Origin: a virus
IMG/VR virus record: IMGVR_UViG_3300042402_001352
Location: 1-29,973 of that record
DNA: 29,973 nucleotides
Reading direction: 5' to 3' (one strand)
Shown here: piece after piece, positions 1 to 23,193 of the stretch
Layout: the number at the start of each line of letters is the position of its first letter
Position numbering within the stretch: position 1 is the stretch's first letter
The notes under the pieces: generated by a model
Told to the model about the DNA's origin: nothing
The model's database searches: none
The model's input: only the letters and a program-made list of their open reading frames with translations
Position numbers and translations under genes: made by a program

Positions 1-214
1 ATTGACCTAAATCACCATCTGCCTGTTTCAATTTCTGAGCATGCCTCTTTGCGAGTTCTTCTCTATATATTGTAACAAAAGTAGATAGCTGTGTCAAGAG
101 ATCTCTACTGCCCATTCTTGCAGCAGCGTGATATTTTTTATTCAATTCGATGAGACGATTTTCAATGTCTTGATCTTTATACTCTGACAAATCGCCGCTC
201 AGTGGATGAAACAT
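1..214 (-). CDS. Conserved small phage protein, C-terminus cut by window edge
   Basis: This reading frame opens with ATG at 214-212 and runs off the left edge, giving 71 visible residues beginning MFHPLSGDLSEYKDQD. It is highly charged and predicted helical, with a Lys/Arg/Glu-rich segment (EELAKRHAQKLKQ) near the visible end. The start overlaps the stop of the upstream 193-aa gene as TAATG, so translation is probably coupled and the protein probably belongs to the same structural operon. It resembles small conserved proteins next to fibre genes in T4-like marine phages, but I recognise no domain. Function unknown; a small structural or assembly protein is the contextual guess. Confidence 0.7.
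   Translation of the reverse strand, partial: MFHPLSGDLSEYKDQDIENRLIELNKKYHAAARMGSRDLLTQLSTFVTIYREELAKRHAQKLKQADGDLGQ
69..97 (-). promoter_or_regulatory. Possible sigma70 promoter inside a coding region
   Basis: On the minus strand TTGACA (97-92) is followed after exactly 17 bases by TACAAT (74-69). The match is good, but the site lies inside the partial CDS, so it may be fortuitous. It would transcribe genes beyond the left edge. Confidence 0.25.
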
Positions 215-795
215 TAGCTGTATAATCCTAAATAATTCATCCAAATTACAGTAGCACTGTGTTGCCAAACTTCGATGATCACTGGGTTTGTAGCAGATGT
301 GACTGTAACTGATACAGGAAAACCTGGTGATTTTTTAATCACAGTGCCGCCTGAAGTAATAAATGTAATTGTTCTAGCAGTACCATCTCCGTAGAGTTCT
401 AGAGTGGCTTTACCGATCTGTCCGAGTCCTGTGACATCCACTGCTCCGGTAGGAAATTCAGAGAATGACAAACTGGTGTTTGCTCCGAACTTTACTATGT
501 GATACATGGCCTGTTTAAAACTGATGTCTTGTGTGCCTGCCACTATTGGAGAACCATAGTCCTTTTTACGCAGATAAGCATCTTGTAGTGTTACAGATCC
601 TACTACATTATACAAGAAATCGTTGTCTTCGTCTATCCGGGCTGCATTATCCTGCAGATCTGTAATCTCAGTCTTGGCAGCAGAGAAGTTGGTTTTGATA
701 GTATCAAAGTTATCTCTAAACACCTGAGTGTCGTTGTCCTGGCCAGCTACAGGAAAGTTTTCATTTATTGCTGCGAAATTGATAAGGCTTGTCAA
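214..795 (-). CDS. Virion structural protein, short fibre-like, 193 aa
   Basis: The protein begins MTSLINFAAINENF and has a segment VFRDNFDTIKTNFSAAK (about residues 25-41) that looks like a variant of the AFxKVNxNF module at the N-termini of the neighbouring fibres. The remainder is Gly/Thr/Ser/Val-rich and predicted beta. The start codon is TTG: TTG at 795-793 overlaps the TGA stop of the 833-aa gene (TTGA), a GGAG lies about 10 bases upstream, and no in-frame ATG exists near it. Position in the fibre cassette and composition argue for a tail or baseplate-associated protein. The exact role and target are not visible. Confidence 0.75.
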   Translation of the reverse strand: MTSLINFAAINENFPVAGQDNDTQVFRDNFDTIKTNFSAAKTEITDLQDNAARIDEDNDFLYNVVGSVTLQDAYLRKKDYGSPIVAGTQDISFKQAMYHIVKFGANTSLSFSEFPTGAVDVTGLGQIGKATLELYGDGTARTITFITSGGTVIKKSPGFPVSVTVTSATNPVIIEVWQHSATVIWMNYLGLYS

Positions 796-3293
796 GGTAA
801 TTTTTCTCCACGTTGCGGGAATGCAAGGTATTTATCCTCTATTTCTCCGTCTATAATATCTATTATATAGCGATCTGCTACAAAGTCAATGGTTTTAAAA
901 TCAAAGCCACTGGCTTTGATTCTGGCCACTATATTTTCAGCCGGGCTGGCTGCTGCATCATTATCCGATCCTGGTTTGCAATAACACAGGGGTAAGGCTG
1001 ATACATATCCTGTCTCAAAAGATGCTTGGTCTTGTGTGCTGCGCATCCATAAGGGCAAAAATTCTCGATCTCTGTCCCCTATTGCGCTGATGCGTGATCT
1101 CATGTTTTTAATAGAATTAGGAAACACTCGCTGATGATCACTGTCGCTGACCAAGGGAATGTCGCTGTCTATTTTGATACTGTCATAGCTGATCAATACC
1201 TTGCTGTTAATGTTATTGGGTAGATTCACTGTTTGGCTGATGCTGCGACCGTTTTTTTCTAGGTCGTCTATGATTTCTACATAGATGACTTCATAGATGG
1301 TCTCTTGTGTTACAGGATCTTTGGCTTTGGCAGTTTTAAGACTACCAAATTTCAATCTCTTGTGATAATGATTGCGACTCATGGCCTGCACAAATTTCAC
1401 AGCTGTAACACTTTCTATACCTGCATATATCAAAACTCGAAGATCTGTCTGCACACTGAAATTAACGTCACCATATCGATAGATGTCTGTGGGGCGGAAT
1501 ATTGTTGCATCGGTGATGAAATTAAACCATGCTAATCTTTTGGGTTTTGATTGTAGGGCTTTGACATAGAGATTGGCAAAAGTTTTATTGTTTGCAACCA
1601 ACACAGATAAATTAAATGTGCGATTTAATGTGGCAAAATTCACACTGTCTCTGGCTCGCACAGTAAATGTAAACTTGAGATCATATGTTGTGGTAGAATT
1701 GTCGAATATCGAGGAATAATCTCTACTGAGTGTGGAACTGTCTTCAGCGGGTGACAGATTGTCTGTGCGTTCGAAAAATCTTGTTAGTCCCGGACCAGCG
1801 TCATCTGCAAACTGTTTGATCTTGCCTTGTATTGCACCTGTAGGCAAAAATTGCAGTCCAGCAGGTAGATTGCCTGACACAAATTCATAGCTGATTCTTC
1901 CGCCGTAGAGTAGACTTGTTGCTTGAATGAATTTGTCAGAAGCAATGTTTGGTTTAATTGTTCCAAGATCGCTGTCAGTGATCCATTCTACTGCGCTGTC
2001 AATTTCTCCGATCACTGTGACAGTGAAAGTTTTTTCAGTCTTGGAAGTGCTGGCTCGCCAGTATTCTTCATCAGTGGGTAGTCTGTTAACATGAACTTTC
2101 ACACTGATATATGTTACTCCAACGAATTCCACAGCATCGTTGATTATGTAAGTAGTGGAGTTATTCCATGTGCCTTTATAAACATAATTTGTGTATGCCA
2201 GATCTGCTGGATAATTCACAGCACGGACAGTGAATTGATAATTTTTCGAGATTCTAGCCTGATATGGCACAGAACCTGCTATATCGCCTGTGGTAGTATC
2301 TAGTTCCATGCCAGGAGGCAGTTGGCTCTGTGAACCGTCGGGATTGACGGGCAACAGAAAGTATGCGATGGTGCCGGATAAAGTGGGAGGATCGTAGACA
2401 TCCAAGAATATGGTCACATAGTTATTGGCACGGAATCGGCCTAGATCACTGTCAGTGATCCAAATTGGCACACGAGCACTGCTGGCATCTGCCTGAAATA
2501 TATTGGTGTCAACCTGCACTATTGAGTTATCGGCCTGTAGGAACTCTTCAGTGACCACATAGATTTTAAACAGTCTAGTTTCTGTATACACTCCGTCAGT
2601 GACAGCCACTATGAAATTGTAGATCCTGCTGAGACGTCTAGGAGTTCTGCTGGGTTCATTGTAATCAAACACAGTGATGTCGTAGGTAAATGTGTCAAAT
2701 CCATTGCCTCGAGCTTGTATAAAGTCTATAGGAAACACGTCTAAGGGTGCGGTGTCATAGCCACCTGAAGTTTCCAGATTGTATTCCACGGCAAATATGG
2801 GATCGGTGAAACCTGATATTACACCACTCTTGCTGAGGCTGAGTCCAGGAGGCAATACTCCTCCATTGGGCACAAGATAAAATTCCAATACATCACTGGC
2901 AATGAGATCTGTGTCACGTGCTTCTAGTTGAAAATTTACTCGTGCATTGTCTAATACAAAGTAAGCTTCTGCTGGACCAACGTTTAAAAATCCTTCCTTG
3001 GTGAGCCATATGGGTCTATCACTGCCATCCACGGCCAGCTTAAAAGTGCGGTCTTCAATGTCCACACCGTCTGATGCTCGAATCACAAATCTGTTTTCTG
3101 TGTAGACTTTGACTTCAGTGGGACTGCCTTTGATAGCGCCATCAATCAGTTTGAGGCCACGTGGCAATGAACCTGCGATCAAGCTGTATGCAACAGTGGC
3201 TGTGAGATTGGTTGTGGCCTGTAATTGTATATCAATAGGTATACGTTCAGTGAGCAAGCCTAGACTATCTGCAGGAGTGATCCATGTTATCAT
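792..3293 (-). CDS. Structural protein with repeated Ig-like (He_PIG-type) domains, 833 aa
   Basis: The sequence shows at least four copies of a motif typical of putative Ig (cadherin-like) He_PIG domains: a hydrophobic strand, then LPxGLxL, then GxIxGxP. Examples are GSLPRGLKL (about 41-49), GGVLPPGLSLSKSGVISG (about 143-160), LPPGMELDTTTGDIAG (about 322-337) and GNLPAGLQFLPTGAIQG (about 471-487). The strands WITDSDLG also recur. A segment near residues 375-416 (GTWNNSTTYIINDAVEF, then YWRAST) resembles a chitin-binding type 5/12 carbohydrate-binding module. The C-terminal third is less repetitive. These folds are common on phage tails and baseplates, where they mediate weak glycan binding. 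ATG at 3293 has AAGGA upstream. A baseplate wedge or fibre-base component is the likely role. Confidence 0.75.
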   Translation of the reverse strand: MITWITPADSLGLLTERIPIDIQLQATTNLTATVAYSLIAGSLPRGLKLIDGAIKGSPTEVKVYTENRFVIRASDGVDIEDRTFKLAVDGSDRPIWLTKEGFLNVGPAEAYFVLDNARVNFQLEARDTDLIASDVLEFYLVPNGGVLPPGLSLSKSGVISGFTDPIFAVEYNLETSGGYDTAPLDVFPIDFIQARGNGFDTFTYDITVFDYNEPSRTPRRLSRIYNFIVAVTDGVYTETRLFKIYVVTEEFLQADNSIVQVDTNIFQADASSARVPIWITDSDLGRFRANNYVTIFLDVYDPPTLSGTIAYFLLPVNPDGSQSQLPPGMELDTTTGDIAGSVPYQARISKNYQFTVRAVNYPADLAYTNYVYKGTWNNSTTYIINDAVEFVGVTYISVKVHVNRLPTDEEYWRASTSKTEKTFTVTVIGEIDSAVEWITDSDLGTIKPNIASDKFIQATSLLYGGRISYEFVSGNLPAGLQFLPTGAIQGKIKQFADDAGPGLTRFFERTDNLSPAEDSSTLSRDYSSIFDNSTTTYDLKFTFTVRARDSVNFATLNRTFNLSVLVANNKTFANLYVKALQSKPKRLAWFNFITDATIFRPTDIYRYGDVNFSVQTDLRVLIYAGIESVTAVKFVQAMSRNHYHKRLKFGSLKTAKAKDPVTQETIYEVIYVEIIDDLEKNGRSISQTVNLPNNINSKVLISYDSIKIDSDIPLVSDSDHQRVFPNSIKNMRSRISAIGDRDREFLPLWMRSTQDQASFETGYVSALPLCYCKPGSDNDAAASPAENIVARIKASGFDFKTIDFVADRYIIDIIDGEIEDKYLAFPQRGEKLP
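829..836 (-). promoter_or_regulatory. Possible late promoter GATAAATA
   Basis: GATAAATA (836-829, minus) lies about 33 bases before the TTG start of the 193-aa structural gene, inside the end of the 833-aa gene where it encodes Asp-Lys-Tyr. It is one base from the T4 late consensus. Because it is coding sequence it could be chance. Confidence 0.35.
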
Positions 3294-3304
3294 GTGATCA
3301 GTCC

Positions 3305-3880
3305 TTAGAGAAGTGTGCCACAGTCCAGATCCATGCGTCCAGGCAGCAGTATGGTGCCAAAATCTATGTTTGCAGATTGTAGAGCTACCTGCATGGCATT
3401 GGTATATGTGCCGTCTATGCGTCCAAAGTCATAGGAAGTCAATATGTCTGTGACTGGAATAATGGTTTTGAAACTCACTGTGGAACCAAAAGCAGTGACC
3501 TCTATGTCCTTTCTGCTGGTAGTAGACCCTGGTGCTGCTACTCCTGCCATGGTGATCTGTTGATGTGTGCTGGCTAGCATGACACCAGCATCGGTGTCTA
3601 TTCTGATAAAAGCATCTGGAGCAGAGTTATTCACGGTGATGGTATCTGTGTTTTCAGACAACAGCATCTTGGTGCCGGATACCAGCTTTTTAAATTTTAG
3701 ATCAGCACCTACTTTTTCTTTGAAAACACCTGCACCCACTGCACCAACATTGGTGGCAGTGATAGTTAGCTGAGTGCTTATATCTGCGAAGTTGGCATTT
3801 ACTTTTTGAAACGCGGTGCGTAGATCATCGCCTAGGCCATCATTTACCACATTGCCGATATTAATTGGTTGTATTGTCAT
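3305..3880 (-). CDS. Short tail-fibre-like structural protein, 191 aa
   Basis: The N-terminus (MTIQPINIGNVVNDGLGDD, then LRTAFQKVNANF) is nearly the same module that begins the 1280-aa and 2488-aa fibres, but here only about 150 further residues follow. The body is predicted beta with Thr/Val/Gly-rich strands, and the last part (ILLPGRMDLDCGTLL) ends the protein. It therefore looks like a short fibre or adaptor with the common virion anchor but no large receptor-binding domain. A GTAAATA late-type element lies about 19 bases upstream of the start. Known function: none recognised. Inference: a baseplate/fibre component competing for, or occupying, equivalent attachment sites. Confidence 0.75.
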   Translation of the reverse strand: MTIQPINIGNVVNDGLGDDLRTAFQKVNANFADISTQLTITATNVGAVGAGVFKEKVGADLKFKKLVSGTKMLLSENTDTITVNNSAPDAFIRIDTDAGVMLASTHQQITMAGVAAPGSTTSRKDIEVTAFGSTVSFKTIIPVTDILTSYDFGRIDGTYTNAMQVALQSANIDFGTILLPGRMDLDCGTLL

Positions 3881-3898
3881 AACACGCTCTCTTTAGTA

Positions 3899-3906
3899 TA
3901 TTTACC
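3899..3906 (-). promoter_or_regulatory. Candidate late promoter GGTAAATA
   Basis: GGTAAATA (3906-3899, minus) lies in the 29-base gap between the LamG-like gene and the 191-aa gene. It leaves a short leader containing a purine-rich AAAGAGAG before ATG at 3880, which suits a T4-type late promoter. Confidence 0.5.
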
Positions 3907-3909
3907 GTT

Positions 3910-4602
3910 TTATGGGTATCCAAATCTTGCTCGATATGTGGTATACAGCGACTGAACATTGGACAGCGTTAATACACCGTTGTATACTTTGACAAATCCT
4001 ATATCAGCTGTTTGCACTTCACTACCGCCAGCACGACTGAACAGTCTTAGTTGATTGAAACCACCACCACCAGCATTGGTGCCGGTGAACAATGTGCCAG
4101 TTGGCGAGGAACTGGTTGCAGAATATAGTTGTCCTAGACTTGTTGAGGTATTCCAAGTAGCCCAATCAAGATGCCAGAAGAGATCAGCACCCGATGACGG
4201 CAGGTTAACTGCAAAGTTAGGATAGAATGTTTGGTCGTGGCCGTTGTACAGGCCCATGAGCCAGTCTTTGCTGGCTTCGCTTTGTGTTTGCAGCAGTCTA
4301 CCATCAGCAGTTGCTATGCGTTTGTAGGCCATAAACACAGTATAACTTTGTCCAGTAACATAGTTAGGACCACCATAGATAACATCAGTGCCCACGGCGT
4401 TGCTTTTTCTAAACACCCCACCGTTGGAAGATTGCCAAGAAATACTGCCGCCAGCATTGGCCACCGATAGTGTGTAAGTTCCTGTAGCATCCGAGGTGCC
4501 GTTCACAGGCACAGCAGAATAGTTGGCTGCGTCTAAATCGTATACCAAAGTTGGCAGTGAGCTTCCGCCATAACTGGTCATTAATGCTGTTACGCCTGTC
4601 AT
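3910..4602 (-). CDS. LamG / concanavalin A-like lectin-fold structural protein, 230 aa
   Basis: The protein resembles the laminin-G/concanavalin A-like lectin fold: an early YDLDAANYSAVPVNGTSD segment (about 20-37), a central run of aromatic strands (SYTVFMAYKRI; DWLMGLYNGHD), and an ending ADIGFVKVYNGVLTLSNVQS (about 200-219), which is a common closing strand pattern of phage LamG-like domains. It lacks the N-terminal anchor module of its neighbours. It starts one base after the stop of the 1280-aa fibre, so it is likely translated together with it. Family knowledge: such domains bind glycans on cell surfaces. Inference: a fibre-tip adhesin or glycan-binding decoration protein. Confidence 0.7.
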   Translation of the reverse strand: MTGVTALMTSYGGSSLPTLVYDLDAANYSAVPVNGTSDATGTYTLSVANAGGSISWQSSNGGVFRKSNAVGTDVIYGGPNYVTGQSYTVFMAYKRIATADGRLLQTQSEASKDWLMGLYNGHDQTFYPNFAVNLPSSGADLFWHLDWATWNTSTSLGQLYSATSSSPTGTLFTGTNAGGGGFNQLRLFSRAGGSEVQTADIGFVKVYNGVLTLSNVQSLYTTYRARFGYP

Positions 4603-4603
4603 A

Positions 4604-7600
4604 TTATGTTAGTCCTGTTCCGTTGATGTACCAGGTAGTGGCAGCTACCTTGACTGCTGTGGCCATACCGTTGGCCGCCAGTGTTCTTGTGCCAGTGCTT
4701 GTGCCACCCGCCAATCTCAGGGTGTCTGATGTGATAGCAATGGTCACTGTGGTAGCACTTGGTCCTGCTATGAATGTAAGAGTGGTTCCTATTGGATAGG
4801 CCACTGAAGCATTAGCTGGAATTGTTATTGTCTGACTGTTGGTTGTTACATAAATGTGTTCACCAGCATCTGCTATGGTCAATGTGTTAGTGGTTGTAAC
4901 TGCGCTTGCCGGGATACCTAGATAACCAGCACTTCTGGCTGTGCTGGCTGTGGTAGCCTCTGCTAGGGTGTTGATCACAACACCACCACTGCCATTGCAT
5001 TCTAGTTCAAGGTTAGCGTTTGTGACCGTTGTGCTGATTCTATTGCCCACCACAGTGATCTGATCAGTGTTGAATGTTTCAGCTGTGACACTATTGCTGT
5101 ATGAAACTTCTTTGGTGCTGGCGTTGTATTGCAATACTCCACTGGTAGCACTGATATTTCTAATTGGTGCCACAGTGAATGTGTTGGCTGTAGCTTGATT
5201 CAACACACTGCCGGTGGCATTTATAACGATTGAGTTAGCGGCTTGGCCATTGTAGCCGGCAGCATAACCAATGGCCACAGAATTGACACCTTGATAGCCA
5301 CCACCAGCAAAATAACCAATAGCCACCGCGCCAGCACCTTGTTCAATATTACCAGCCTCACGGCCAATGGCCACAGCATTGGTGCCTTGTTGAATATTAC
5401 CAGCACTGCTACCAACAGCCACAGCATTTGCACCTTGCGTTGTTTGTCCAGTAGCGTAACCAACAGCCACAGTATTGATGCCTTGTTGAATATTACCAGC
5501 ACCGGCCCCAACGGCCACCGCGCCAATGCTCTGGCTGGTAAGCCCTGCTTGCGCACCAAATGCCACAGCATCGCCAGCTGTGTCTTTTATCACAGCACCA
5601 TTTGTTAGTGTGATACTACCTGGCAATGTTAAACTGCCATCGTCACCAAATGTCCATTGTTTTGATGTTCCTCCAGTATTGGTCCTAATGAGTATATTTG
5701 TATGAGCGTATAATTCAGCAGATACCGACCCCATATACAATGCAGTAGTATCATCACTAGTACTTGTTAGATATGCAACGTTGGCGTAAGTAGTAAAGTC
5801 TAGTTTAGCATTTCCTAATCCACTAATTGGTCCTGGTACTGTTAACTCACCATCTTCACCAAATGACCATCTACGCAAAGTACTATCACTTAGGTTGATG
5901 TCAATGTTGATGTTGCCGTCGCTCTTGATATTACCAGGTATGGTCAAATCACCTGCCGTGTCAAACTCCCAAATCTTGTTAGTCGCATTGGGGGTGGTTA
6001 TTTGTATTTTACCGTTAGTGGTAGTACGCACATTGTGATCGTCAGTGCCCAAGAAGATACTGGTTTCTGTTAAATCGCCTGTGGTCAAGTGTAGGTGATG
6101 ATCACCTCCTACATATGAAGGTGCGTCACTGTTGATCAAACCTGATTCAACGCCTATACTTTCAGGATCGTAATTATCTTCTTCAGGTGATACACGAATA
6201 GTAAATTCGTAGTCATCACTGTCAACGAGAATACTAAAGTCACCGCCGCTGCCGTCTAATGTTACTGTACCAGAGTCTGGATCAGCGATGCCAGCACCTT
6301 CTGGGTAGATCCACCAGTATAGTGTTTGATCAGCATATGTATCTGAATAAACATAGAAAGTAAGAGTATCACCAACTTGAGCAGTATTGACATAATAATT
6401 TATTTCTATGCCGTTGTCAGTGTAGATATACGAGCCGCCGCCTTTAATTACTAACTTCTGACTGGCCACATCTGGGCTTGCTGGTGTAAGTTGAATAGTG
6501 GGATTGCTGGTAACAACGCCTTCTGTGATTGTACCGCCTTCAGGTAATACTAAATCACCATCCTCACCGAATCTCCATCTACGCAATGTTGAATCTGACA
6601 AGTTGATGTCAATGTTGATAGCACTTTCGCTACGGATATCGCCTGGTAGTTCTAGACCACCGTCGCCCTGAAATTTCCAATTATGTTCAACTGTACTGTT
6701 TACATCTGTGCGATCAAATGATCTAATGGTTAGGCCACTGCGATCTTCATCCTGCCAGTTTAGTTTAATCTGTGCTCGTTCGTCACTGTCACCTTCACCA
6801 TCTGGATCACCACTGTAGGCTCGAATAAGTTGTGTGGTATCGTCGTCAACCTCTACATTGATCCAACGCATTGAAGTTGTGCCATCGCCGCAGTCTTGTA
6901 CAAATCTACCACCATTTGTACCAGTGACAATATCATCTGGTGCTGTTAGTATACCATCCTCACCAAACTGCCAGATGCGCTGTGTTGAATCTGTAAGATT
7001 AACTCGGATTGAAACATCAGTTTCACTTTCTATGCCAGTGGCAGCGCCGCCCCCTGATCCAGTGATGGTAATATTGCCTTCTGCATCGCTGGCAGTGGTA
7101 ACACCACCAGCACCTATGAACTTGATTGATTCGTTGTTGCTGATTACTCTCTGTGTGGAATCATCTGCGGCTACTGAGAAACTAAAAGCAAGAGCGCCTG
7201 CGGTAGTCTGTGTTGTGCCGTCTGGGAATGTAATGCCACCCGGAAGGGTTAGATTTCCTGCGCCATTGAACTGCCAAACTCTTTCGTTATCACCTTGGTT
7301 AGTGAGTATTCGTACTGGGGCAGCATAATTTCCACCGTTCTCTGTGTAAGCACGAACAGTTAGACCATCTTCGTCTTGTCTAATCCTACTGTTAACACCG
7401 CCGGCAACCGAGCCATAGTCCCATACGATGCCTCTATTAATACCGCCAGTTTCGCCGCTGAATGTTGCATTACCTGCTGCGGAAAGTGTAAAAGTTTCTG
7501 TGCCGTTGACTAAATTACTGACACTACCAGTCCAGGCGGTGTATTGACTTGTACCGTCTGGAAAATTTATTCTACCATAGTAGGTAGCACCATTGTCATC

Positions 7601-8446: not shown

Positions 8447-8447
8447 T

Positions 8448-10499
8448 TTACGCTCCTATGCTCACGCGGTGTATTGCTAGTCGACTACTACTCGATATGT
8501 CAACAGGTCCACCACTGACTTGTCTTATAGCAACTCTAACAGCATCTCCTGCAGAGGCCGGCATTACAGTTGAGTAGTGTAGATAACTACCAGTCCAAGA
8601 ACCATTGAAAATTACAACTGCTTTAGTGACATCAAGGTTAGTATCTATAGTAAGAAAGCTACCCGGGTTTAATGTTACTGTGGTTGAGAAATATACTGAC
8701 ATGTTGATCTGATAGTAACCTGTGTATGGTACTGTAAATGTTCCAGTACTATACGAATTAGCAGTGTCAACTGTGTCAACAAACTGTATAAATGAGGCAC
8801 TTGCTCCGTCGTTTACTGTCTGCGTAGTTGTTGTGGCAGCAATTACTGTAACAGGACTATAACTTTTTAGTACACTACCGTCACTGAATGTAATACCATT
8901 AGATACAGTAAGCTCGTTTTCTACATTGACATCGCTGCTAAAAATTGTTTTAGGAGTAACAGTAATTGCTGAACTGTCTGCTGAATCAATCAATGATGTA
9001 AAGATATTTCCAGTAAACGTACCGCTAAGTGTGCCGCTTACTGATCCTAATGCGGAATTATACGTAACTTCTTTTGTACTAGAATCGTATTGTACAATGC
9101 CACTTGCACCAGTTTGATTTCTAACGGGATTAACATAGAAACCAGCCGCTGGTGCATCTAGTGTAAATCCAGATGCGTTAATTGCAATGGATCCTGAAAC
9201 AGCTGACGGATACCCTGCTCCATTGCCTATAGAAATAGCGTAATCGCCTTGACCTGCACCTGCGGCGGCTCCGATAGCAACAGCACGATTCCCTTGATTA
9301 ACATTGCCTGCACCAGAACCAATAGCAACAGCGTAGTCTCCTTGATTAAATCCACCTGCTACGATTCCGATAGCAACAGAGTCTAAACCTTGCAGTCCGT
9401 CGCCCCCTGCGCCTATACCTAGTGCAATTTTAGTATCTTCAGTTCTTAATGTTGTTGCAAATATTCCGCCATAGACTTTGTTTTCTACAGCATCAATAAT
9501 CTTAGTTGAATCGTCGCCAAACACTGAACCTCGTAAATCAAACACTGGATTCACTGCAATGGTTAAAGTGTCAGTGGCCACATTTTTACTCAGTGTGATG
9601 GTTGCATCACTGGCAATGTTTAATGTGTCGCTGGCTGCATCAGCTGCCAGTATATTAGCTATATCATTGTTGACTACAATTTGTGTAAACGCATTTACCG
9701 CAGGTGCTGAGTTGGTAATAGTCACGTCACCTGTGGCAATGTCGGTACTAACTGTGATACCTACACCAGAAGATACAGTTATGACACCAGTGTTGGTTAT
9801 TCTCAAGTTGTCACCAGTCGCGCCGTTTATGTTAATACCTGCGCCTGTGGTTCTGCCTGAGGGCAAAGCAGTGACATTCTGTAGACTGCGAACACCAGTA
9901 TTGGTTATTGTTGCCACACCACTGCCTGTGGCAGTTGATATACCCGAACCTGCTGCTACGCTAAGTATGCCAGTGTTTGAGAATGTGATTGAGTCTGCTC
10001 CTGAACTCACCGCCAGTCCCACGCCTGAACCTGACAAGAAATTCACTGTGTCACCGAATGTGGTTGCCACTATGGACAGATCGTTGTTGATTTGTATTTC
10101 TTTGAAGAACGTTTTATCAGGATCTATGATCAAACTGGTGCCTACACCAGTTAACGGATCACCACCCACAGTAGATCCTGTAGGTAGATTAATGATACTG
10201 CCCACACCTTTGACCTGTGCGCTGCCTGCCCATAAGCCGTTTAATGGATCCACGGTAGTGTGTTCTGCTGTAAACACTGATCGCCACTGACGAGTTATAT
10301 CTCCCAAACTGCGTAAATTATTTGTAGTAGGAGTAACATCGGTATCCAACGATGAAAAATCTATAGGAGCCAGTCCTGACCCAGTGCCAATAGTAGCAAC
10401 TAGTATGTCAAAGTTTTCATTGACTTTCGTAAACGCTTCATTGACTTCACTCCATAATACAGGAGGACGACCTGGGGTTATATTATTATTAAAAGGCAT
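8448..10499 (-). CDS. Tail fibre with YadA-like repeats and C1q/TNF-like tip, 683 aa
   Basis: The N-terminus holds a variant anchor (WSEVNEAFTKVNENFDIL, about 17-34). Residues about 60-350 are beta-rich, with repeating GxGISTATGSGVATITNTG-type strands. About residues 370-440 hold four to five YadA-head-like units (YAVAIGSGAGNVNQG, RAVAIGAAAGAGQG). After a short linker with a coiled or shaft segment, residues about 560-683 look like a C1q/TNF-like jelly roll: GTFTVPYTGYYQINMSVYF is the characteristic strand pair, followed by hydrophobic strands and a basic C-terminal strand (SRLAIHRVSIGA). C1q-like tips are trimeric ligand-binding heads. ATG at 10499 overlaps the stop of the giant gene (TAATG) and has GGGAGA upstream. 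Confidence 0.8.
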   Translation of the reverse strand: MPFNNNITPGRPPVLWSEVNEAFTKVNENFDILVATIGTGSGLAPIDFSSLDTDVTPTTNNLRSLGDITRQWRSVFTAEHTTVDPLNGLWAGSAQVKGVGSIINLPTGSTVGGDPLTGVGTSLIIDPDKTFFKEIQINNDLSIVATTFGDTVNFLSGSGVGLAVSSGADSITFSNTGILSVAAGSGISTATGSGVATITNTGVRSLQNVTALPSGRTTGAGININGATGDNLRITNTGVITVSSGVGITVSTDIATGDVTITNSAPAVNAFTQIVVNNDIANILAADAASDTLNIASDATITLSKNVATDTLTIAVNPVFDLRGSVFGDDSTKIIDAVENKVYGGIFATTLRTEDTKIALGIGAGGDGLQGLDSVAIGIVAGGFNQGDYAVAIGSGAGNVNQGNRAVAIGAAAGAGQGDYAISIGNGAGYPSAVSGSIAINASGFTLDAPAAGFYVNPVRNQTGASGIVQYDSSTKEVTYNSALGSVSGTLSGTFTGNIFTSLIDSADSSAITVTPKTIFSSDVNVENELTVSNGITFSDGSVLKSYSPVTVIAATTTTQTVNDGASASFIQFVDTVDTANSYSTGTFTVPYTGYYQINMSVYFSTTVTLNPGSFLTIDTNLDVTKAVVIFNGSWTGSYLHYSTVMPASAGDAVRVAIRQVSGGPVDISSSSRLAIHRVSIGA

Positions 10500-13400
10500 T
10501 ATGTTCTCCCTACTGCTATTTCAATTGACCCTATGTGATCTGAATCGTATGCTATCAGAGCTTTACCAACCACGGTGCCTACTCTTACATCACCTGTGGC
10601 AGCCACTGCCACTCCTGGAATTCCTGATGTGATCAAAATATCTCCTTTTGATATTTTTCCTACTACCTTGCAGGGCACACGACCTTGTAGTGCAACTAGA
10701 TTCTTCAAGCCTGGACAAGCATCATACATGATAAATGCTGCATTATCAGATACCACACCAGCTACTCTAGTATCACCTTTGATATTGCTCATGGTAACTT
10801 CTTTATCCCCGCCGAATACAAGAACAGTTCCTACTTCATATTCTCGATCACCTTCGTAGTATTCTGCAAGGTCAGCAGCATATGTGGCCTGCATTCTAGA
10901 CCCTGGGTTCAAGCTCCAGGTACCTATGATAGTACCAGGGTTGCCATTGCCACCAGTAGTCAGTGAACCACCACTACCAACATTCAGACCAGTACAGGTG
11001 ATAGTGCTGGTTGATGTAATTGCACCCACCGCAGTGATAGGAGCATTAGAAACACCATTCTGAGTTTTGAATTCATGACTATCATTCCAATACGATGTTT
11101 TATCATCTGTAGCCAACGACCCTTCGCTGATCAGTATACCACCAGCACTGTTATATCCGTAATAGCGTAGGTACCCACCAGTGGCAGTTGTTGCTGAATC
11201 AACAGCCAATTGCGTGTCAATCTTGATATTAGATACATCAACAGTTCTACCACCAAAGTCACCATTCGTGTCTCTGACAATGATTTCATTGGCTCCGATG
11301 CTGCTGCTGCTTCCAGCAGATCCAGCTACTACACTATAGGAACCATCTGCTGTTGCAGTAGCACCAGTTCTTCTTAAGAATCCCACAGTGGAGTATTGTG
11401 ATTTTTTAATGGCCAGTCCATCGTTGACCACATCAGCAAATGCCACTGCGGCAGCGTTGGCTGTGCTCACACCACTGTTACCGATCAGTGTGTCTGGAGC
11501 CAACTGTGCAAGATCTCCTAGCTGAACACTGTTGGCTTTGATGGTAACATGTCCGTCAGTGACGTCAAAATCCGCATTGCTGAAACTGCTTAATCCGCTG
11601 GCTGCTTGTATAACAGCAGCAGATCCCACAGGCGCTGCAGACTGTGCAGTAGCAATGGTCATTGCCAGCTTGCTCTGATCAATAGCTGCGGCAGCATTTA
11701 CTTCAGCATTGTTGACCACACCGGCGTTTAACTGCACGTCTATGTTGTTTAGGCTAGAGTCTATGCCAGTGCGTAGATCAAAGGTCAAGTCGCCAGTGAC
11801 ACTGGCATTTACAAAGATGTCGTCAACACCAGTGAACACCATTACTTGGCCGCCCTGCACATTGGATCCCGCATAGTTTTGTAAATTGGTAAAAGTCAGA
11901 CTACGAAGATTTACTGCATCTTGAGGGTCAGTTGGATCGGCAACATTAGCAATCTTATTGAAGTTAAGATTCATAGTTGACTGCATGCCCAGCTGGCCAT
12001 CTAGACTCATGAAACCGCCTGTGCCAAATGGTATTATTTCTGCTGCTACAACAGCAGCACCTTCATGTGAGATTCCTAGTCGACGATCTATGTATTTGCG
12101 TGTGGCATTCTCTGTGGGCACAGTATCTGTGGCGTTGTCTGTAAATCCACTGTCTGTAGAAAATTCACTGACTGGCACACCACGTTTGAATCCAATACCG
12201 TCCAAATTGCTCAGTGCAATAGAACTGGAGAATGTGACCTGTCCTGTACCTTGGTCAACTCTAAAGAACGGTCCTACGGAGAAATTACCAAATTGATCCG
12301 TGGTAACATAAAATACACGACCCACATCACGTTCTTCTGTTTCTTTGGAGTCGTCTACCGGATTAACACTACCTCCATAAATTTCTTTGGGATAGTTGGT
12401 ATCTGCATAAGAACCTGTGCCGATCTCAAGCAGATCATGTCCAGTAACTCGAGTAAGAGCAATTCTAATAGTCAAAGTGCCAAGACTGCCGCTGGTACGC
12501 ACAGCCACGGCAGCTTTAATGGTGTAACTTGTGGACAAATTGTTTATGGCATTGACCAACGGACGGTTCAGTGTGATTCTGCCAAACACGGTGCCAGTTA
12601 CACCAGGACCTTGATACGAACTAATCACATATTCTTCGCCCAGATAAACAAACTTAGCTGCAGATAATCTAGATATTTCAGTAGTTGAAATAGCAATTAC
12701 TGCAACAGCATTGTCACCTGCGCGGCCGGTAACTAGCCCTACTTTTTGCACACCACTCTGTATACCGGAGGTTTCTATAGCCGGGTCACCAGGCACATCT
12801 GTAATTTGGAATGTATCAGGATTTCCTGTGCTGACAACAAAATACCTATTTTGAATACTTATTCCTGTGGGCAAAGCACCAGTGGTAGTGAATTTGACCA
12901 CGTCTCCCGCGGAGAATCCATGCCCGACCAGTGTTACCACAGCTGGATTAGCGATTGATATAGTGCAGGTTGTACCAGTTGGTGTTGAAGATATAAATTC
13001 TCCAGGCTGGAATACCGTGATATCTATATAGTTGTAGTTTTCTCTGGTCTGGGTGAGAGTCAACCCCACGATGTTATATCTATGAATGCCACTACCTGCA
13101 GTTGTGATACTCACAGCAGCACCGTTTTTCTGTGTGCTTATACTGAATTGTGTTTCTGTGAGATTGTTAGGCAACACATAGTAAGTTTCTCCCACTAGCA
13201 ATGGAGCAGGTAACGTGCCTGTGGTAGTGAAACTTATGGTGTAGGCCTCTAACAGTTTGTGAGTTTTCACGGCTTTGATACTCAGTCCAGCACCATTTGT
13301 CAATGTAAATGTGCTGCCGCCTGGACTTGAGCTGACTGTGAACGTGTTATATGTGGGCTGTGTGATAATATAATAGGTAATGCCGCTGACAAAGTTATTG

Positions 13401-16400
13401 GCAGTACTGGTAGGAATTATTTTATCACCTATTCTCAGTTTGTGATTACCGCTGGTGGTACAGACGTTTGAAACTATATCTGTTATAGTCAATGTAATGC
13501 GGAATATTGTAGGTGTAGCCGTGTTAACTAATATATCATAAGGACCATTATTATCTGCGGTATTAGTGAATGACAATACACGATACACTGTGCCTGGAGT
13601 TTCACGTAGCTTCAATCCAGTAGAAGGTCTTACAGCAACATCTTCCAGACTGCCGGTGAGCAGTGTATTGCTGAGCTGACGAATTGTCATTTTGGTGTTG
13701 TTTGTCACCACCGCAAATAGACCCGCTGTGGCGGTGCCGAGCCCAGTGCTGAGATTCAATCTTGCCACCCCCACTGGAAGATCGGTGGTAGTCACACTAG
13801 TCACTGGGTATCTATATATTTCTGTGCCGTGCAGAATTTCCAATTCTGATCCACTTAGTGGTGTGTAGTCGAAATTATACACAAATATAGACAATCCACC
13901 TGCCACGTTGGCATATGCGCCACTAGGGAAATAACAATCTACTCGTTGATTTAGATCTTGATACAGAGTGGTTGGGGTAGGAACTTCAAGTGGATCTGCA
14001 CCTTCTGCAACCAAGGCATAATTACCATGAGCATTTGAACCGCCAACCGCACGAATCTGTCCGCCAGTCAGTGAGTAGTAGGCAATATGGCAGTAGTATG
14101 TGAACATAGACACTGCTTCAGTTAAGCCACCATTGGCCACAACTATGCCATAGCCGAGGTCGTTGATCTGTGTGAAGTCGTTACATAACATGCTTCTGTT
14201 ACCAGGCATCAACAACTCATATCGATTGCCATTGAAATCCACATAGCTCACAGCTGATGCCTGGAGCGCAGCTTTATTGGTCTGAATGATAGTTCTAACA
14301 GCAATGTTATTAGCAGTGTATCCCACAAAGCTAGGTTCAGTTATGGCTACCACTGCTTGCGCAGCTGTGAAGTTGGCAGCACCGATGATTGAACTCATGC
14401 GGGTCATTAGGGTGTTGATTGTAGCAGCTTCTGTGGCCGAGGCAGGAGTTCCTGAGGCTCTAGTCACTGCAGAATAACTCACAGCTGGAGCCAAGTCCTG
14501 CACAATTTGTCCTAGCAGATAATTCAAATAGGCATGCCAGGTTGCAGATTGAGCTTGTGTTAGCGAAGAATCAGTGATTACTGCACCTGTGAGATTGTTG
14601 TAGAATTTCAGTGCTCTAGTGCGTGTGGCCACATTGCCGCCATAAATCAAGTCATGTATCACAGCGTCCACAGCTTGTCTAATCTGATATTCTACTTCAC
14701 TGGCCACATATACCGTGGCAGTGGTAAATCCACTGAGATTGCCTGCTATCTGTGCATCGATATAAGCAATTAGTTCAGCGATTTCATAGTCTCTGTTTGC
14801 CAACAGCAGTGCATAGGCATTAGTGACGTTAGCAGACAGTCCAACCGGTAGTGTAAATGACAGAGCAGGTGCTGCAACAATCCCGCGTTCTATAGTGTCT
14901 GCTATGACAGTATTGCTCTGATCCACAGTTTCTTGAATACTAGGATAAGCAGTAATTAGATCGTTTACAGAATCATGAACGAACTCAATAGCTTCTAATG
15001 TGATTCGTCGTTGATCCGTCAATACCACTGCGCTTTGGCTGAGTCTGTAGGTCAAGCCATTTTGTCTGGTCCAGTAGTTGGTGCCTAGCACAATATCCCT
15101 TCCCAGGCCATCTAGGATCAATCCAGTGTCTCGACTGCAGGCAGCAGCATTGTAAGTGAATACTGAGAATGGCCAAGGCGTGGTTTCATCTAATACAAAT
15201 GTAGCTGTGCTGCCGTCCTTGTCATAGACAAAGTCTCGGACATAGTTTATTCTATATACAGAATCCGCTACAATAAATGATGCTGGAAGTTGCGGAAATC
15301 TATCAAGATCACTGACTTGCAATCTTGTTGGAGTAGCCACGACGTCGATATTGAATTCCAGGTTGCCTGCAAATCCGTCTGTGAACATACCGCCAGCAAA
15401 CACCTGTCTGTCCTTGCTGCGGCTGAATGAAGCACACTCTTGAAAGTATGGAGACCTTGACAATATCTGACCTGTGGGATCCAATACTCCCATGAAACCG
15501 CCATGACCTATGGCTGATATCGCTTGCCAACGCACGGTATCGTTGGCTAGGAACACGTCCATCTCTTCGTTGTCTTTGGGATAATTCACTGATCCCGATC
15601 CATCAATTACATCCTTGAACGCTGTGATCAAGTCTGTGATAACCCCATCAGCGCCCACCTCAGACTGGAACGCAGGATCAATAGTCTGTAAAAATAAATT
15701 CTGTTTAGGTGAGGCAACAGCAGTGTTAGTGATAATATCTTGAACTAGCTCTTCAAAAAGATCTATCACCGCCAGATATTCACTGAGCTGTGTGGTAATT
15801 ACTGTGTTACCAATTTCACTTTGATAATATTTCAGTGCTGCAGATATAGTTCGATTATATTCTCCGTAGTCTAGATCAAAAGTAAGATCGTCAACTAAGA
15901 TACCTATGCTGGTTTTGTAGAATGGTTTATCATAATTAAAAGTAGAAACAAAAGGTATAACATTATTGATTTTGCGGAAATCAATAGTAGCAATGATTTC
16001 TTCCTGTAGAAACTGTCTGTTCAATCTAATCAGGTCCGCAGCTGCTTCATATCCGCCTTTGTTTTGTATTTTGGGATAGACAGGTTGAGTGCTGTTCTGT
16101 AGATAATGATAACCGTAGGCCTGTGTGACCACATCAAGGCCATCGATGACTGGATCTCTACGGAATTTATTAAATGCCCAAGGACTGGCAGATGTGCCTG
16201 GACGAGGTCTAAAAATAACTCTACGGAATTCATCTCCTACTACAGAAACGTTTGCAGGAACTTTTAGTGGATAGTTTTCGAAATATTCTCCACTTTCTAC
16301 CAGCACAGAAATCTGTATGTTTCTAGCAATGTCTCCATAGGTTATACTTTCACCTATTTGAAAATTACCAGACAAGATATCCACATCAAAAATTTCATTG

Positions 16401-17965
16401 CCACCACTTTCTAGTTGTCCTGAATGTGCCACAATCTGGGCCAATGCGTTGCTGGTCTTGCCTCGAAGAAATAGTCCTTCGCGTATATCACGTCCTCGGA
16501 CAGCTTCAACAGTATTGGTAGTAACATCACCTGTGAAGTCTGTGCGCAGGCCTGCGGTATAGATCAAGAATCTAGGAAGGTCCACTACGAAATTTGGCAA
16601 TGAACTAAAGCCTGAACCTTTGTCTGTGATAGTGATACTGGTAATCGATCCGCCAGTGACCACAGCGGAACCAAATGCTCCAGTGCCTCCGCCACCTGTG
16701 ATTCTTACAGAAACCAAACTATACCCACTGCCGCCATTACTAATAGATACTGATCCCACTTTGTATCTGATATCAAAAGTAGCACCAGTTCCTATAGGAC
16801 CGATCCCCACAGGTGCAGCACTAGTGCTGATTGTGGTTGGCACAGCAGTAGCACCTGGTAGTGCAGTATATGTTCCAGTAGAGACGACTTTAAAAGTAAC
16901 AATAGCACCAGGAGTAGTTAGGGTAGTTAATACTTCTATTAAACAAGCCCCACCACCTGAAGGCACAGTTCCTCCGGAGACTTGTAGTATATCACCGGGA
17001 TAATAATTTGCACCTACGGTATTAATTACAACAGTGTCTACGCTCATACGTATAGTGCCAGCGAAATCTATACCAGATGTAGGAGATTCTTCAATGGCAG
17101 TCAACGAACATTCGGTAGCTCCGTTATTAAAAGTTAATGTTTTTTCGTAAGGCCCAATAATAGATCGTGATTCTAAAACCAATTGTTCTGCACGTTTGAG
17201 AGCAGCTTCGAGAGTTCTGTAAGCATAGGCCAAAGCACGACCTTGCAGTGCCTGAGATACGCCCGGGCGATCATCTTGACCACTGAGCGCCACATACAAA
17301 TTCACACTAGAACCAAATGCCGAACTATCAACATACTGTTTTGTAGCTGCGATCAATCCGCCGTAATTTGTGTCGTCATCTGGTTCTGGACTTCTAGAAA
17401 GTATCAGCGGTCCGCTCATACGTCCAAAGCTGGTATCTGTAAGACCTGTAGCAGGATCTATGGCATTGACCCCAAATCTAGATATTTTAGAATCTGCATA
17501 ATTCTTATTAACTAATTCGTGACTGTAAATTGGTGCCAACGGGCTAATTGTTGTTCCGGCATCAACTATACGATATTGATTACCACCAGAGCGCATGGAC
17601 AAATCGCCGCCCAGCTGTGGTGTTGTATCAGCAGCTATTTCGGCAAAATCCGCATTAATTGCAATTTGATTGGGGTTAGTGGTAAAATCAATGCTGATAC
17701 CACTGCCTGCAACAAGTTTTTTAAATTGCAGTCCTGACTCTGTGTTATTCACAGTGACTACAGGAGTATTGCCAGTAACAACGTCGTTCTGACCCACGTA
17801 GGTAGCAGGAGTATCTTCTAGGCCTGTGAATTGTAATCTTTCGCCGAGCCCTAGTGAGCTGTAAAGTTCTCTAAAGTTGTCATTAACTTTACGGAATGAA
17901 TCTCTTATACTGTCGCCGGTGCCGTCGTTGCCAACGGTGCCGATATCAATAGTCTTTCTTGCCAT
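10499..17965 (-). CDS. Giant fibre/structural protein with beta-helix-type domain, 2488 aa
   Basis: Residues 1-40 are the shared anchor (IDIGTVGNDGTGDSIRDSF, then RKVNDNFRELY). About residue 216 on, NLYVALSGQDDRPGV and the following TLEAALKRAEQL resemble the entry of pectate-lyase-like right-handed beta-helices; VLVESGEYFENYPLKVPANV (about 555-575) fits the same fold. GSGY/GGGTGA beta repeats lie near 405-470. Helical segments near 680-745 and 1105-1160 look like copies of one domain (DL-x-YG ... ALKxY). A block near 1830-1970 contains VGRVFYVTTDQFGNFSVGPF, a motif seen in marine T4-like phage structural proteins. The last ~130 residues (AADLAEYYEGDREYEVGTVL on) form a conserved fibre C-terminal domain, possibly a chaperone or cleavage domain. 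Probably the longest tail fibre or a baseplate-attached adhesin. Confidence 0.75.
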   Translation of the reverse strand: MARKTIDIGTVGNDGTGDSIRDSFRKVNDNFRELYSSLGLGERLQFTGLEDTPATYVGQNDVVTGNTPVVTVNNTESGLQFKKLVAGSGISIDFTTNPNQIAINADFAEIAADTTPQLGGDLSMRSGGNQYRIVDAGTTISPLAPIYSHELVNKNYADSKISRFGVNAIDPATGLTDTSFGRMSGPLILSRSPEPDDDTNYGGLIAATKQYVDSSAFGSSVNLYVALSGQDDRPGVSQALQGRALAYAYRTLEAALKRAEQLVLESRSIIGPYEKTLTFNNGATECSLTAIEESPTSGIDFAGTIRMSVDTVVINTVGANYYPGDILQVSGGTVPSGGGACLIEVLTTLTTPGAIVTFKVVSTGTYTALPGATAVPTTISTSAAPVGIGPIGTGATFDIRYKVGSVSISNGGSGYSLVSVRITGGGGTGAFGSAVVTGGSITSITITDKGSGFSSLPNFVVDLPRFLIYTAGLRTDFTGDVTTNTVEAVRGRDIREGLFLRGKTSNALAQIVAHSGQLESGGNEIFDVDILSGNFQIGESITYGDIARNIQISVLVESGEYFENYPLKVPANVSVVGDEFRRVIFRPRPGTSASPWAFNKFRRDPVIDGLDVVTQAYGYHYLQNSTQPVYPKIQNKGGYEAAADLIRLNRQFLQEEIIATIDFRKINNVIPFVSTFNYDKPFYKTSIGILVDDLTFDLDYGEYNRTISAALKYYQSEIGNTVITTQLSEYLAVIDLFEELVQDIITNTAVASPKQNLFLQTIDPAFQSEVGADGVITDLITAFKDVIDGSGSVNYPKDNEEMDVFLANDTVRWQAISAIGHGGFMGVLDPTGQILSRSPYFQECASFSRSKDRQVFAGGMFTDGFAGNLEFNIDVVATPTRLQVSDLDRFPQLPASFIVADSVYRINYVRDFVYDKDGSTATFVLDETTPWPFSVFTYNAAACSRDTGLILDGLGRDIVLGTNYWTRQNGLTYRLSQSAVVLTDQRRITLEAIEFVHDSVNDLITAYPSIQETVDQSNTVIADTIERGIVAAPALSFTLPVGLSANVTNAYALLLANRDYEIAELIAYIDAQIAGNLSGFTTATVYVASEVEYQIRQAVDAVIHDLIYGGNVATRTRALKFYNNLTGAVITDSSLTQAQSATWHAYLNYLLGQIVQDLAPAVSYSAVTRASGTPASATEAATINTLMTRMSSIIGAANFTAAQAVVAITEPSFVGYTANNIAVRTIIQTNKAALQASAVSYVDFNGNRYELLMPGNRSMLCNDFTQINDLGYGIVVANGGLTEAVSMFTYYCHIAYYSLTGGQIRAVGGSNAHGNYALVAEGADPLEVPTPTTLYQDLNQRVDCYFPSGAYANVAGGLSIFVYNFDYTPLSGSELEILHGTEIYRYPVTSVTTTDLPVGVARLNLSTGLGTATAGLFAVVTNNTKMTIRQLSNTLLTGSLEDVAVRPSTGLKLRETPGTVYRVLSFTNTADNNGPYDILVNTATPTIFRITLTITDIVSNVCTTSGNHKLRIGDKIIPTSTANNFVSGITYYIITQPTYNTFTVSSSPGGSTFTLTNGAGLSIKAVKTHKLLEAYTISFTTTGTLPAPLLVGETYYVLPNNLTETQFSISTQKNGAAVSITTAGSGIHRYNIVGLTLTQTRENYNYIDITVFQPGEFISSTPTGTTCTISIANPAVVTLVGHGFSAGDVVKFTTTGALPTGISIQNRYFVVSTGNPDTFQITDVPGDPAIETSGIQSGVQKVGLVTGRAGDNAVAVIAISTTEISRLSAAKFVYLGEEYVISSYQGPGVTGTVFGRITLNRPLVNAINNLSTSYTIKAAVAVRTSGSLGTLTIRIALTRVTGHDLLEIGTGSYADTNYPKEIYGGSVNPVDDSKETEERDVGRVFYVTTDQFGNFSVGPFFRVDQGTGQVTFSSSIALSNLDGIGFKRGVPVSEFSTDSGFTDNATDTVPTENATRKYIDRRLGISHEGAAVVAAEIIPFGTGGFMSLDGQLGMQSTMNLNFNKIANVADPTDPQDAVNLRSLTFTNLQNYAGSNVQGGQVMVFTGVDDIFVNASVTGDLTFDLRTGIDSSLNNIDVQLNAGVVNNAEVNAAAAIDQSKLAMTIATAQSAAPVGSAAVIQAASGLSSFSNADFDVTDGHVTIKANSVQLGDLAQLAPDTLIGNSGVSTANAAAVAFADVVNDGLAIKKSQYSTVGFLRRTGATATADGSYSVVAGSAGSSSSIGANEIIVRDTNGDFGGRTVDVSNIKIDTQLAVDSATTATGGYLRYYGYNSAGGILISEGSLATDDKTSYWNDSHEFKTQNGVSNAPITAVGAITSTSTITCTGLNVGSGGSLTTGGNGNPGTIIGTWSLNPGSRMQATYAADLAEYYEGDREYEVGTVLVFGGDKEVTMSNIKGDTRVAGVVSDNAAFIMYDACPGLKNLVALQGRVPCKVVGKISKGDILITSGIPGVAVAATGDVRVGTVVGKALIAYDSDHIGSIEIAVGRT

Positions 17966-18037: not shown

Positions 18038-18325
18038 ATGTTTCTCACAACCAAAACTCAACTAAATCAATACTCTAGACTCAGTAAACACGGAGTCGAA
18101 CATCAATATAAAAGAAAAAAGACTGTAGTAGTGTTGAGATGTGATGACTGTGATTCGATATTTGAAAGAGATCTCAAACACATGGATAAGAAACGCCTCA
18201 GCAACAATTTCTTTCATTGTTGTGGGTCTTGTGATGCCAAAAGATTTGCTCAACGCACAGGAGTCGAACAAAAACAGATCTGGAATTTACCTGCTAGTTT
18301 AGACTTACCTGTGTCTAAATTCTAA
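18038..18325 (+). CDS. Small Cys-rich zinc-finger-like protein, 95 aa
   Basis: This is one of only two convincing plus-strand genes. It is basic in its first half (KRKKTVVVLRC) and has C35-x2-C38 followed by H60-C61-C62-x2-C65, a spacing suited to a zinc ribbon or treble-clef knuckle. The C-terminal part (QIWNLPASLDLPVSKF) is conserved-looking. It faces the iscA gene and its last 11 bases overlap the iscA 3' end tail to tail. No ribosome-binding site is evident, but GTAAATA sits four bases upstream of the ATG. A nucleic-acid-binding or HNH-like role is possible, but no catalytic His-Asn-His pattern is clear. Function unknown. Confidence 0.65.
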   Translation: MFLTTKTQLNQYSRLSKHGVEHQYKRKKTVVVLRCDDCDSIFERDLKHMDKKRLSNNFFHCCGSCDAKRFAQRTGVEQKQIWNLPASLDLPVSKF

Positions 18326-18641
18326 ATGATTCGCCGCAGCCGCAGCGGTCGCGCTCATTGGGATTGATAAAATCAAAGCCTTCATTGAGCCCATTGCGGA
18401 CCCAGTCCATGGTCAACCCGTCTAAATAGGCTAGACTTTTGGCATCTACTAACACAACAAATCCGTCATGTGCAAAATTAGTTACTCCTACTTCAGATTC
18501 GTAACTGTCCACGTATTCTAACACATAGGCTAGCCCACTGCACCCTGTAGTCCTAACACCTATGCGAATGCCTACGCCGTGACCACGTTTTGCTAGATTC
18601 TGTTTGATTCGTTTACTGGCTGTGTCGGTTACGGTAATCAT
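18315..18641 (-). CDS. iscA: IscA-type iron-sulfur cluster carrier (HesB family), 108 aa
   Basis: A-type carriers accept Fe-S clusters from IscU, or deliver iron or clusters to apo-proteins, in the cytoplasm. The length matches bacterial IscA. The three ligand cysteines are present: C34 in RTTGCSGLAYVLEY, and C100 and C102 in the C-terminal CGCGESF. The block GLNEGFDFINPNERDRCGCG points to IscA rather than ErpA or SufA as I remember those sequences. The start at 18641 lies within the end of iscU (29-base overlap in another frame), so the two are translationally coupled. An isolated phage HesB protein would be unsurprising; adjacency to a complete IscU makes a functional assembly unit likely. 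Clients are not known from this window. Confidence 0.93.
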   Translation of the reverse strand: MITVTDTASKRIKQNLAKRGHGVGIRIGVRTTGCSGLAYVLEYVDSYESEVGVTNFAHDGFVVLVDAKSLAYLDGLTMDWVRNGLNEGFDFINPNERDRCGCGESFRI

Positions 18642-18999
18642 CTACGGCTGCTTTGATAGCATCTTCTGCTAGAATTGAACAATGTATCTTAACTGGAGGT
18701 AGGGCTAGTTCTTGGGCGATTTCGGAGTTTTTGATTGATCCGGCTTGGTCAAGTGTTTTTCCTTTGACCCATTCTGTAACGAGGCTCGAGCTCGCGATAG
18801 CCGATCCGCAGCCATACGTTTTAAATTTTGCATCTGTAATAATACCTGTATCATGATCAACCTTTATTTGTAATTTCATAACGTCACCGCAAGCAGGTGC
18901 GCCAACCATGCCCGTACCCACATCTTGATCATTTTTATCAAATGATCCTACATTTCGGGGGTTTTCGTAATGATCAATTACTTTGTCCGAGTATGCCAT
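18613..18999 (-). CDS. iscU: IscU iron-sulfur cluster scaffold, 128 aa
   Basis: IscU is the cytoplasmic scaffold on which cysteine desulfurase IscS, with an iron donor, builds [2Fe-2S] clusters before HscA/HscB-driven transfer. All key residues are visible: C37 and D39 in GAPACGDVMKLQI, C64 in TYGCGSAIASSSLVTEW, H106-C107 in KIHCSILAEDAI, and the HscA-recognition motif LPPVK at 100-104. The length is full. As I remember the enterobacterial protein, long blocks are almost unchanged, suggesting acquisition from a proteobacterium and continued selection. It overlaps sod by 26 bases at its start (GGAG upstream of ATG 18999) and iscA by 29 bases at its end. No iscS, hscA, hscB or fdx is in the window, so host partners are probably used. 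Confidence 0.96.
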   Translation of the reverse strand: MAYSDKVIDHYENPRNVGSFDKNDQDVGTGMVGAPACGDVMKLQIKVDHDTGIITDAKFKTYGCGSAIASSSLVTEWVKGKTLDQAGSIKNSEIAQELALPPVKIHCSILAEDAIKAAVDDYRNRHSQ

Positions 19000-19531: not shown

Positions 19532-19536
19532 ACATG

Positions 19537-19544
19537 TATTTACC
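19537..19544 (-). promoter_or_regulatory. Candidate late promoter GGTAAATA for sod-iscU-iscA
   Basis: GGTAAATA (19544-19537, minus) is followed by five bases and then the sod ATG (19531). By T4 late promoter geometry, transcription would start at or next to the A of the ATG. It lies back to back with a plus-strand CATAAATA only one base away. Confidence 0.55.
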
Positions 19545-19545
19545 G

Positions 19546-23191: not shown

Positions 23192-23193
23192 CT

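Follow-up and report, generated by a model that had tools for sequence, protein, structure and literature searches.

A T4 gp9/gp10-type N-terminal module on four tail proteins of a probable large phage, and exchange at its boundary in a candidate adhesin slot

The virus record IMGVR_UViG_3300042402_001352 from IMG/VR is a stretch of 29,973 bases (the window) that probably derives from a very large, uncultured tailed phage. Seven genes lie at positions 214-17965, all on the minus strand and where an earlier note on this DNA had placed them; in reading order they encode proteins of 2488, 683, 1280, 230, 191, 833 and 193 residues. The note proposed that five adjacent genes of this cluster share a short N-terminal module, probably a common socket peg on the baseplate that allows a phage to display several adhesins or swap them. 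This module, called the peg below, and the genes that begin with it are the subject of this analysis.

A search of the window with the 2488-residue protein bears out the shared start for three proteins. The start of the 1280-residue protein is matched by residues 1-46 (48%, E 7.4e-9) and that of the 191-residue protein by residues 4-40 (46%, E 1.2e-5), with no further matches in the window. The N-terminal segment common to the three is 35 residues long. The motif proposed for it is essentially present, though slightly too strict, as the copy of the 2488-residue protein reads IDIG...SIRDSFRKVNDNF. A seed hidden Markov model (HMM) of the three copies, a check suggested in the note, recovers the module, with E values down to 1e-26, from almost every one of 75 related loci. 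These loci come from a scan of IMG/VR; a second scan gave 79 further loci, and some overlap on the same contigs.

The note had also proposed variants of the module in the 683- and 193-residue proteins, of which the first stands and the second does not. The 683-residue protein retains mainly the helical half of the module (EAFTKVNENFDIL) and scores weakly as a single sequence (E 0.11); AFxKINENF is found at the same offset in nearly all of its orthologues. When a profile of 27 distinct orthologous N-termini was compared with the module profile in hhalign, the probability was 96.6% (E 6e-10) and the score 48, against a maximum of 17 among 100 column-permuted controls, none of which reached 48. 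For the N-terminus of the 193-residue protein the same comparison gave a probability of 0.5%, with 23 of 100 permuted controls equal or better. On these profile comparisons, the carriers are four of the seven genes rather than five adjacent ones, because the 230- and 833-residue genes are interspersed without the module and the match of the 193-residue protein is undetectable. Nor are all of the bodies unrelated, as had been claimed: the alignment between 2488- and 191-type proteins of relatives continues past the module as far as about residue 118, and the 683- and 1280-residue proteins have about 125 residues of repeats in common at 48%. The features are summarized in Table 1.

Table 1. Genes and N-terminal modules of the tail cluster, in window coordinates.
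Feature	Position	Strand	Remarks
2488-residue peg-bearing tail protein	10499..17965	-	Central parts related to tail-fibre families; full length kept across relatives
35-residue peg module, start of 2488-residue protein	17861..17965	-	PF07880 E 1.2e-7, above curated cut-off; phrog_958 baseplate wedge
683-residue tail protein	8448..10499	-	Repeats in common with 1280-residue protein
Derived peg module, start of 683-residue protein	10386..10499	-	hhalign probability 96.6%, 0/100 permuted controls
1280-residue fibre, hypervariable slot	4604..8446	-	Body replaced, shortened or absent in relatives
Peg module, start of 1280-residue protein	8342..8446	-	phmmer to T4 gp10 (PDB 5hx2) E 1.2e-5; exchange junction at last residue in relatives
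230-residue protein, second slot gene	3910..4602	-	Varies jointly with fibre body; without peg module
191-residue peg protein	3305..3880	-	Marks end of variable slot; full-length conservation
Peg module, start of 191-residue protein	3776..3880	-	PF07880 E 0.0038, below curated cut-off; phrog_958 E 2e-7
833-residue protein, Ig-like (He_PIG) repeats	792..3293	-	PF05345 E 1.2e-16; conserved neighbour; without peg module
193-residue protein	214..795	-	Different conserved signature at N-terminus; peg module undetectable

Judged by sequence comparison, the module is an already known segment, the N-terminal part of the T4 gp9/gp10 family (PF07880, T4_gp9_10_N). The cut-off of this family (25 bits) is passed by the 2488-residue protein (32.4 bits) and by an 84-residue protein of a related locus that is little more than a peg (32.9 bits), and it is missed by the 191-residue protein (17.8 bits) and a 74-residue peg-only protein (19.1 bits). 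The 1280-residue protein has no Pfam match, though T4 gp10 in the PDB is matched at E 1.2e-5. The matches do not extend over the whole PF07880 domain (about 175 residues, among them a beta domain that follows the helix); they span only profile positions 1-50 in the 2488-residue protein and 2-63 in the 191-residue protein. Baseplate wedge and tail-fibre-connector families of PHROG are also matched, with the gp10 and gp9 families covering mainly the first 40-95 residues. Orthology to gp9 or gp10 does not extend to the whole proteins, whose bodies match other tail-fibre families or nothing; a loose gp9-family match over residues 1-497 of the 1280-residue protein reaches only 34.5 bits. The module is carried by 1,723 records of cultured phages, and for most of those sampled the annotation is baseplate wedge gp10 or gp9 connector.

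In T4, gp9 is attached to the baseplate protein gp7 through its N-terminal domain and holds the long tail fibre with its C-terminal domain; gp10 is similar to gp9 over its first 200 residues, while the N-terminal domain of gp10 sits elsewhere on the baseplate, adjoining gp12 (PMC3004832). The role of a peg is well grounded because the module is the start of these two baseplate proteins. Both gp9 (long-tail-fibre connector) and gp10 (baseplate wedge, tail pin) begin with the same segment and carry it over its full length, whereas about the first 35-60 of the 175 Pfam positions are matched here. The cluster has four carriers against two in T4, and the module is followed by a long fibre body or, in relatives, by hardly anything. 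Cyanophage proteins annotated as ‘baseplate wedge tail fiber connector’, such as gp9 of P-SSM7, are up to 67% identical over the module, with one carrier in the P-SSM7 record compared with four here.

The gene order 2488-like, 683-like, slot, 191-like, 833-like, 193-like is kept in sufficiently long loci, and it is the slot that varies. The slot gene, represented in the window by the 1280-residue protein, begins with the peg and encodes 70-1625 residues in place and over 2000 residues in a relocated copy; a peg gene in this position is absent from at least six long loci. A second slot gene varies jointly with it and is LamG-like, lectin-like or of other kinds, as labelled from the sequences. 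The 191-residue protein beyond the slot is conserved over its full length in an alignment of 19 sequences (47-90% identity). In whole-record searches, the module profile matches 4-5 places in each of the three largest relatives (281, 353 and 163 kb), two in Escherichia coli phage AR1 (gp9 and gp10), one in P-SSM7, one in pelagiphage Mosig and none in P-SSM2; the 683-like gene, although its match is weak, is part of these totals. The relocated slot-type gene lies at 346.7 kb, the record end, in the 353-kb relative (G002), whose other carriers are at 103-116 kb.

The contiguity and shared orientation of these genes, and the joint variation of the second slot genes with the fibre, would also fit a different arrangement, in which the modules link a single composite fibre. 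Each peg would then bind the end of the preceding protein, and the phage would have one long fibre rather than several adhesins. We consider this improbable, since the C-termini of the carriers show no shared end that could receive a peg, and in the G002 record the slot-type gene is separated from the other carriers by about 110 kb or more.

Further tags were seen in and near the slot. The second slot genes of three loci (L016, L019, L045) have unrelated bodies and a common starting tag, M-x-x-SFTGSFKFGRR, which is possibly a second docking tag for distal tips. In a fourth locus, the 365-residue second slot gene (L024:20927-22021) contains a duplicated segment, ELNDLHPANPLVxVINTVNENF, that looks like a further peg derivative. 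An additional peg carrier of 401 residues was found between the 833-like and 193-like genes of another locus (L050:23637-24839).

The boundary between the peg and the variable part of the slot protein is sharp. Among 54 distinct slot proteins, residues 9, 13, 17, 18, 20, 21, 26, 28, 30, 31, 33 and 35 are invariant. Column entropy remains below 1.8 through position 35 (with one exception, 2.3) and is mostly 2-3 beyond; the last conserved residue is Y35, after which variability jumps. At the DNA level, exchange at or near this point is seen in three pairs of loci. L015 and L024 are 96% identical over a 9.4-kb stretch that ends at codon 35 (nucleotide 105) of the slot gene; beyond it they diverge, and they return to 94% identity directly before the 191-residue gene. 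An assembly chimera is unlikely in this case because several metagenomes contain the L024 type and two contain the L015 type. In L035 and L116, the upstream DNA is unalignable, the peg differs at 20 of 105 nucleotides and the tip at 2 of 105 (Fisher p 5e-5), and most of the next 1 kb past the tip is 97-100% identical. Likewise, L152 and L151 differ at 20 of 105 nucleotides in the peg and 2 of 147 in the tip (p 8e-7), with diverged flanks. Among proteins, L123 and L133 have pegs that are 97% identical and bodies that cannot be aligned. A similar, less sharp trend between L123 and L151 (25/105 versus 9/147) stands outside the three main pairs. The suggestion that adhesins may be swapped is thus supported by the DNA of related loci.

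Some other candidate breaks were set aside. Those of L055/L056 and similar pairs were rejected, the L055 contig ending at that point, as was an exchange between L016 and L026, where bodies that are 93% identical with different stops indicate a frame change. The pair L035 and L115 was not used, as it has no sharp joint at the peg end.

Exchange junctions at the end of the segment could also mean that it stems from a recent intragenomic duplication and marks recombination hot spots, with no specific structural role. This reading is already disfavoured and very hard to credit: copies within one genome are only 46-48% identical in protein, they are conserved with T4 gp10, and the shortest genes that consist of them are under purifying selection.

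These shortest genes occupy the slot in many loci and encode proteins of 70, 74 or 84 residues, consisting of the peg and a tip of 35-49 residues that differs between them; slot forms of 112-119 residues carry other tips. The peg-only genes are intact and recur across metagenomes. Their ratio of nonsynonymous to synonymous substitution rates (dN/dS) is 0.02-0.16 by a simple counting method, which indicates strong purifying selection. They are most likely functional rather than debris, and our favoured guess is that a peg-only gene is kept to fill a docking site. It is a more doubtful step to regard the proteins of 70-84 residues, in loci without a slot fibre body, as dedicated blanks on the fibre-docking site, such that the lineage would switch between fibre-bearing and blanked states by exchange after codon 35.

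Our favoured explanation is that four tail proteins of one cluster carry, at their N-termini, the attachment module known from the T4 gp9/gp10 family. Each carrier would probably be a trimeric tail or fibre protein of the virion whose proximal end is fixed to the tail, at a baseplate site, by the module. The 1280-residue gene would be an adhesin slot in which the 35-residue peg is kept and everything downstream is exchanged. Recombination at or near the last codon of the peg would yield long fibres, short tips or peg-only proteins, and such changes may affect host range. The data establish the homology, the presence of four copies, the sharp boundary, DNA exchange in three pairs of loci and purifying selection on the peg-only genes, while trimerisation, docking at the baseplate, incorporation into virions and an influence on host range are inferred. 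We assign the shared attachment module with an exchangeable adhesin slot, taken as a whole, a probability of roughly 70%.

Several points weigh against this explanation. The clear exchange pairs are three, a small sample, and the near-identical loci L024 and L033, rejected as a second codon-35 exchange, lose their 99.9% identity inside the 683-residue gene rather than at codon 35. No proteomics or virion data were found for this lineage. The structure model of the 191-residue protein, in which the module is a predicted helix (residues 16-37), is of low confidence (predicted local distance difference test, pLDDT, 57), matches nothing in the PDB and was rejected as too poor for use as structural proof. 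Pfam models for gp8 and the tail sheath had no match in any of the three large relatives, where divergence and missing sequence are indistinguishable; the baseplate is probably too divergent for its docking partner to be named. A search through T4 baseplate homologues yielded only gp25, a wedge protein of contractile tails, in two of these three relatives (G001, G002); it was not found in G003, with the same ambiguity. In addition, Bordetella phage PHB09 and Pseudomonas phage Almagne have tail proteins that begin with the module, and their tail genes come in the order tape measure, minor tail protein, module protein, then further minor tail and assembly genes, which we take to be the order of phage lambda. 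Because of its occurrence in such clusters, the module may serve to nucleate or cap trimers instead of fitting one particular socket of the baseplate.

If the module were a general trimer-nucleating N-terminal cap for fibres, with the carriers attached at various places by other contacts, its presence in these lambda-like clusters and in T4 gp9 and gp10 at different positions (PMC3004832) would be accounted for, as would the predicted helix in its conserved second half. Such a cap is possible, and in our judgement somewhat unlikely: the peg-only proteins are conserved with little body to trimerise, and outside the helix the residues G9, N13, G17 and D18 are just as invariant as those within it, pointing to a binding surface. 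Of the common socket peg proposed earlier, the role as a peg and the gp9/gp10 homology hold, whereas a single common socket is weakened because T4 gp9 and gp10 sit at different positions and the module occurs in lambda-like tail clusters.

The 193-residue protein begins with a separate conserved signature (FPVAGQDNDTQVFRDNFDTIK; window positions 652-795, L080 and L081). The same signature starts much larger proteins of the jumbo phages Atu_ph07 (876 residues) and Phosso (930 residues), and it is perhaps a second exchangeable N-terminal module. Its C-terminal part is predicted to form a beta domain (pLDDT about 90), which shows a weak likeness to a 303-residue chain of Klebsiella phage Lilla1 (E 0.0075) and to T4 gp9 (E 0.05), as well as to T4 gp10 and the tail spike CBA120 TSP4. 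Beta domains of this type are common in viral tail fibres, and the protein was rejected as a carrier by profile comparison despite this weak likeness to gp9 and gp10. The 833-residue protein was considered as the socket and rejected, as nothing closer than distant relatives in Agrobacterium phage Atu_ph07 was found and no supporting evidence was obtained.

Other observations concern neighbouring sequence. The C-terminal 125 or so residues of the 2488-residue protein (window positions 10502-10900) are 40-43% identical to stretches in the jumbo phages PA5oct and Atu_ph07 and may be a self-cleaving or folding domain. Adjoining the tail cluster, positions 18315-29210 contain genes for an Fe-S carrier and for NifU-like, superoxide dismutase, PTPS/QueD-like and ThyX proteins (Pfam), as well as ultraviolet (UV) endonuclease-like and KDO8P-synthase-like genes judged by eye. 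The 281-kb relative has a dense run of genes resembling radical-SAM enzymes, with CxxxCxxC motifs (L163; G001:236000-255900).

In the N-terminal anchor model of phage receptor-binding proteins, a conserved N-terminal anchor is combined with an exchangeable C-terminal body. The module and its exchangeable body are similar to this model (Klebsiella phages, PMC6872550); here, the position of a joint is narrowed to about one codon, and peg-only forms are retained. In the tailspike complex of CBA120 (Kuttervirus) and the branched fibres of RaK2, several adhesins per phage are organised via conserved T4-gp10-like N-terminal domains (PMC8825819, PMC10253068). These systems use the gp10 XD2/XD3 jelly-roll domains and a separate anchor domain on one protein, in contrast to the extreme N-terminal segment repeated on each protein here. 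The principle that several adhesins are organised by N-terminal anchors is therefore not new (PMC8825819, PMC10253068, PMC6872550). The new part, as far as we found, is the codon-resolved exchange joint together with the peg-only genes.

If the favoured explanation is true, a segment of 35 residues would be a standard part by which a large environmental phage fits different appendages to its tail. With the exchange joint, viral metagenomes could be mined for adhesins, as any gene that starts with the peg would be a candidate tail appendage regardless of its body. The peg-only genes, in turn, make it testable whether tail function requires a filled docking site.

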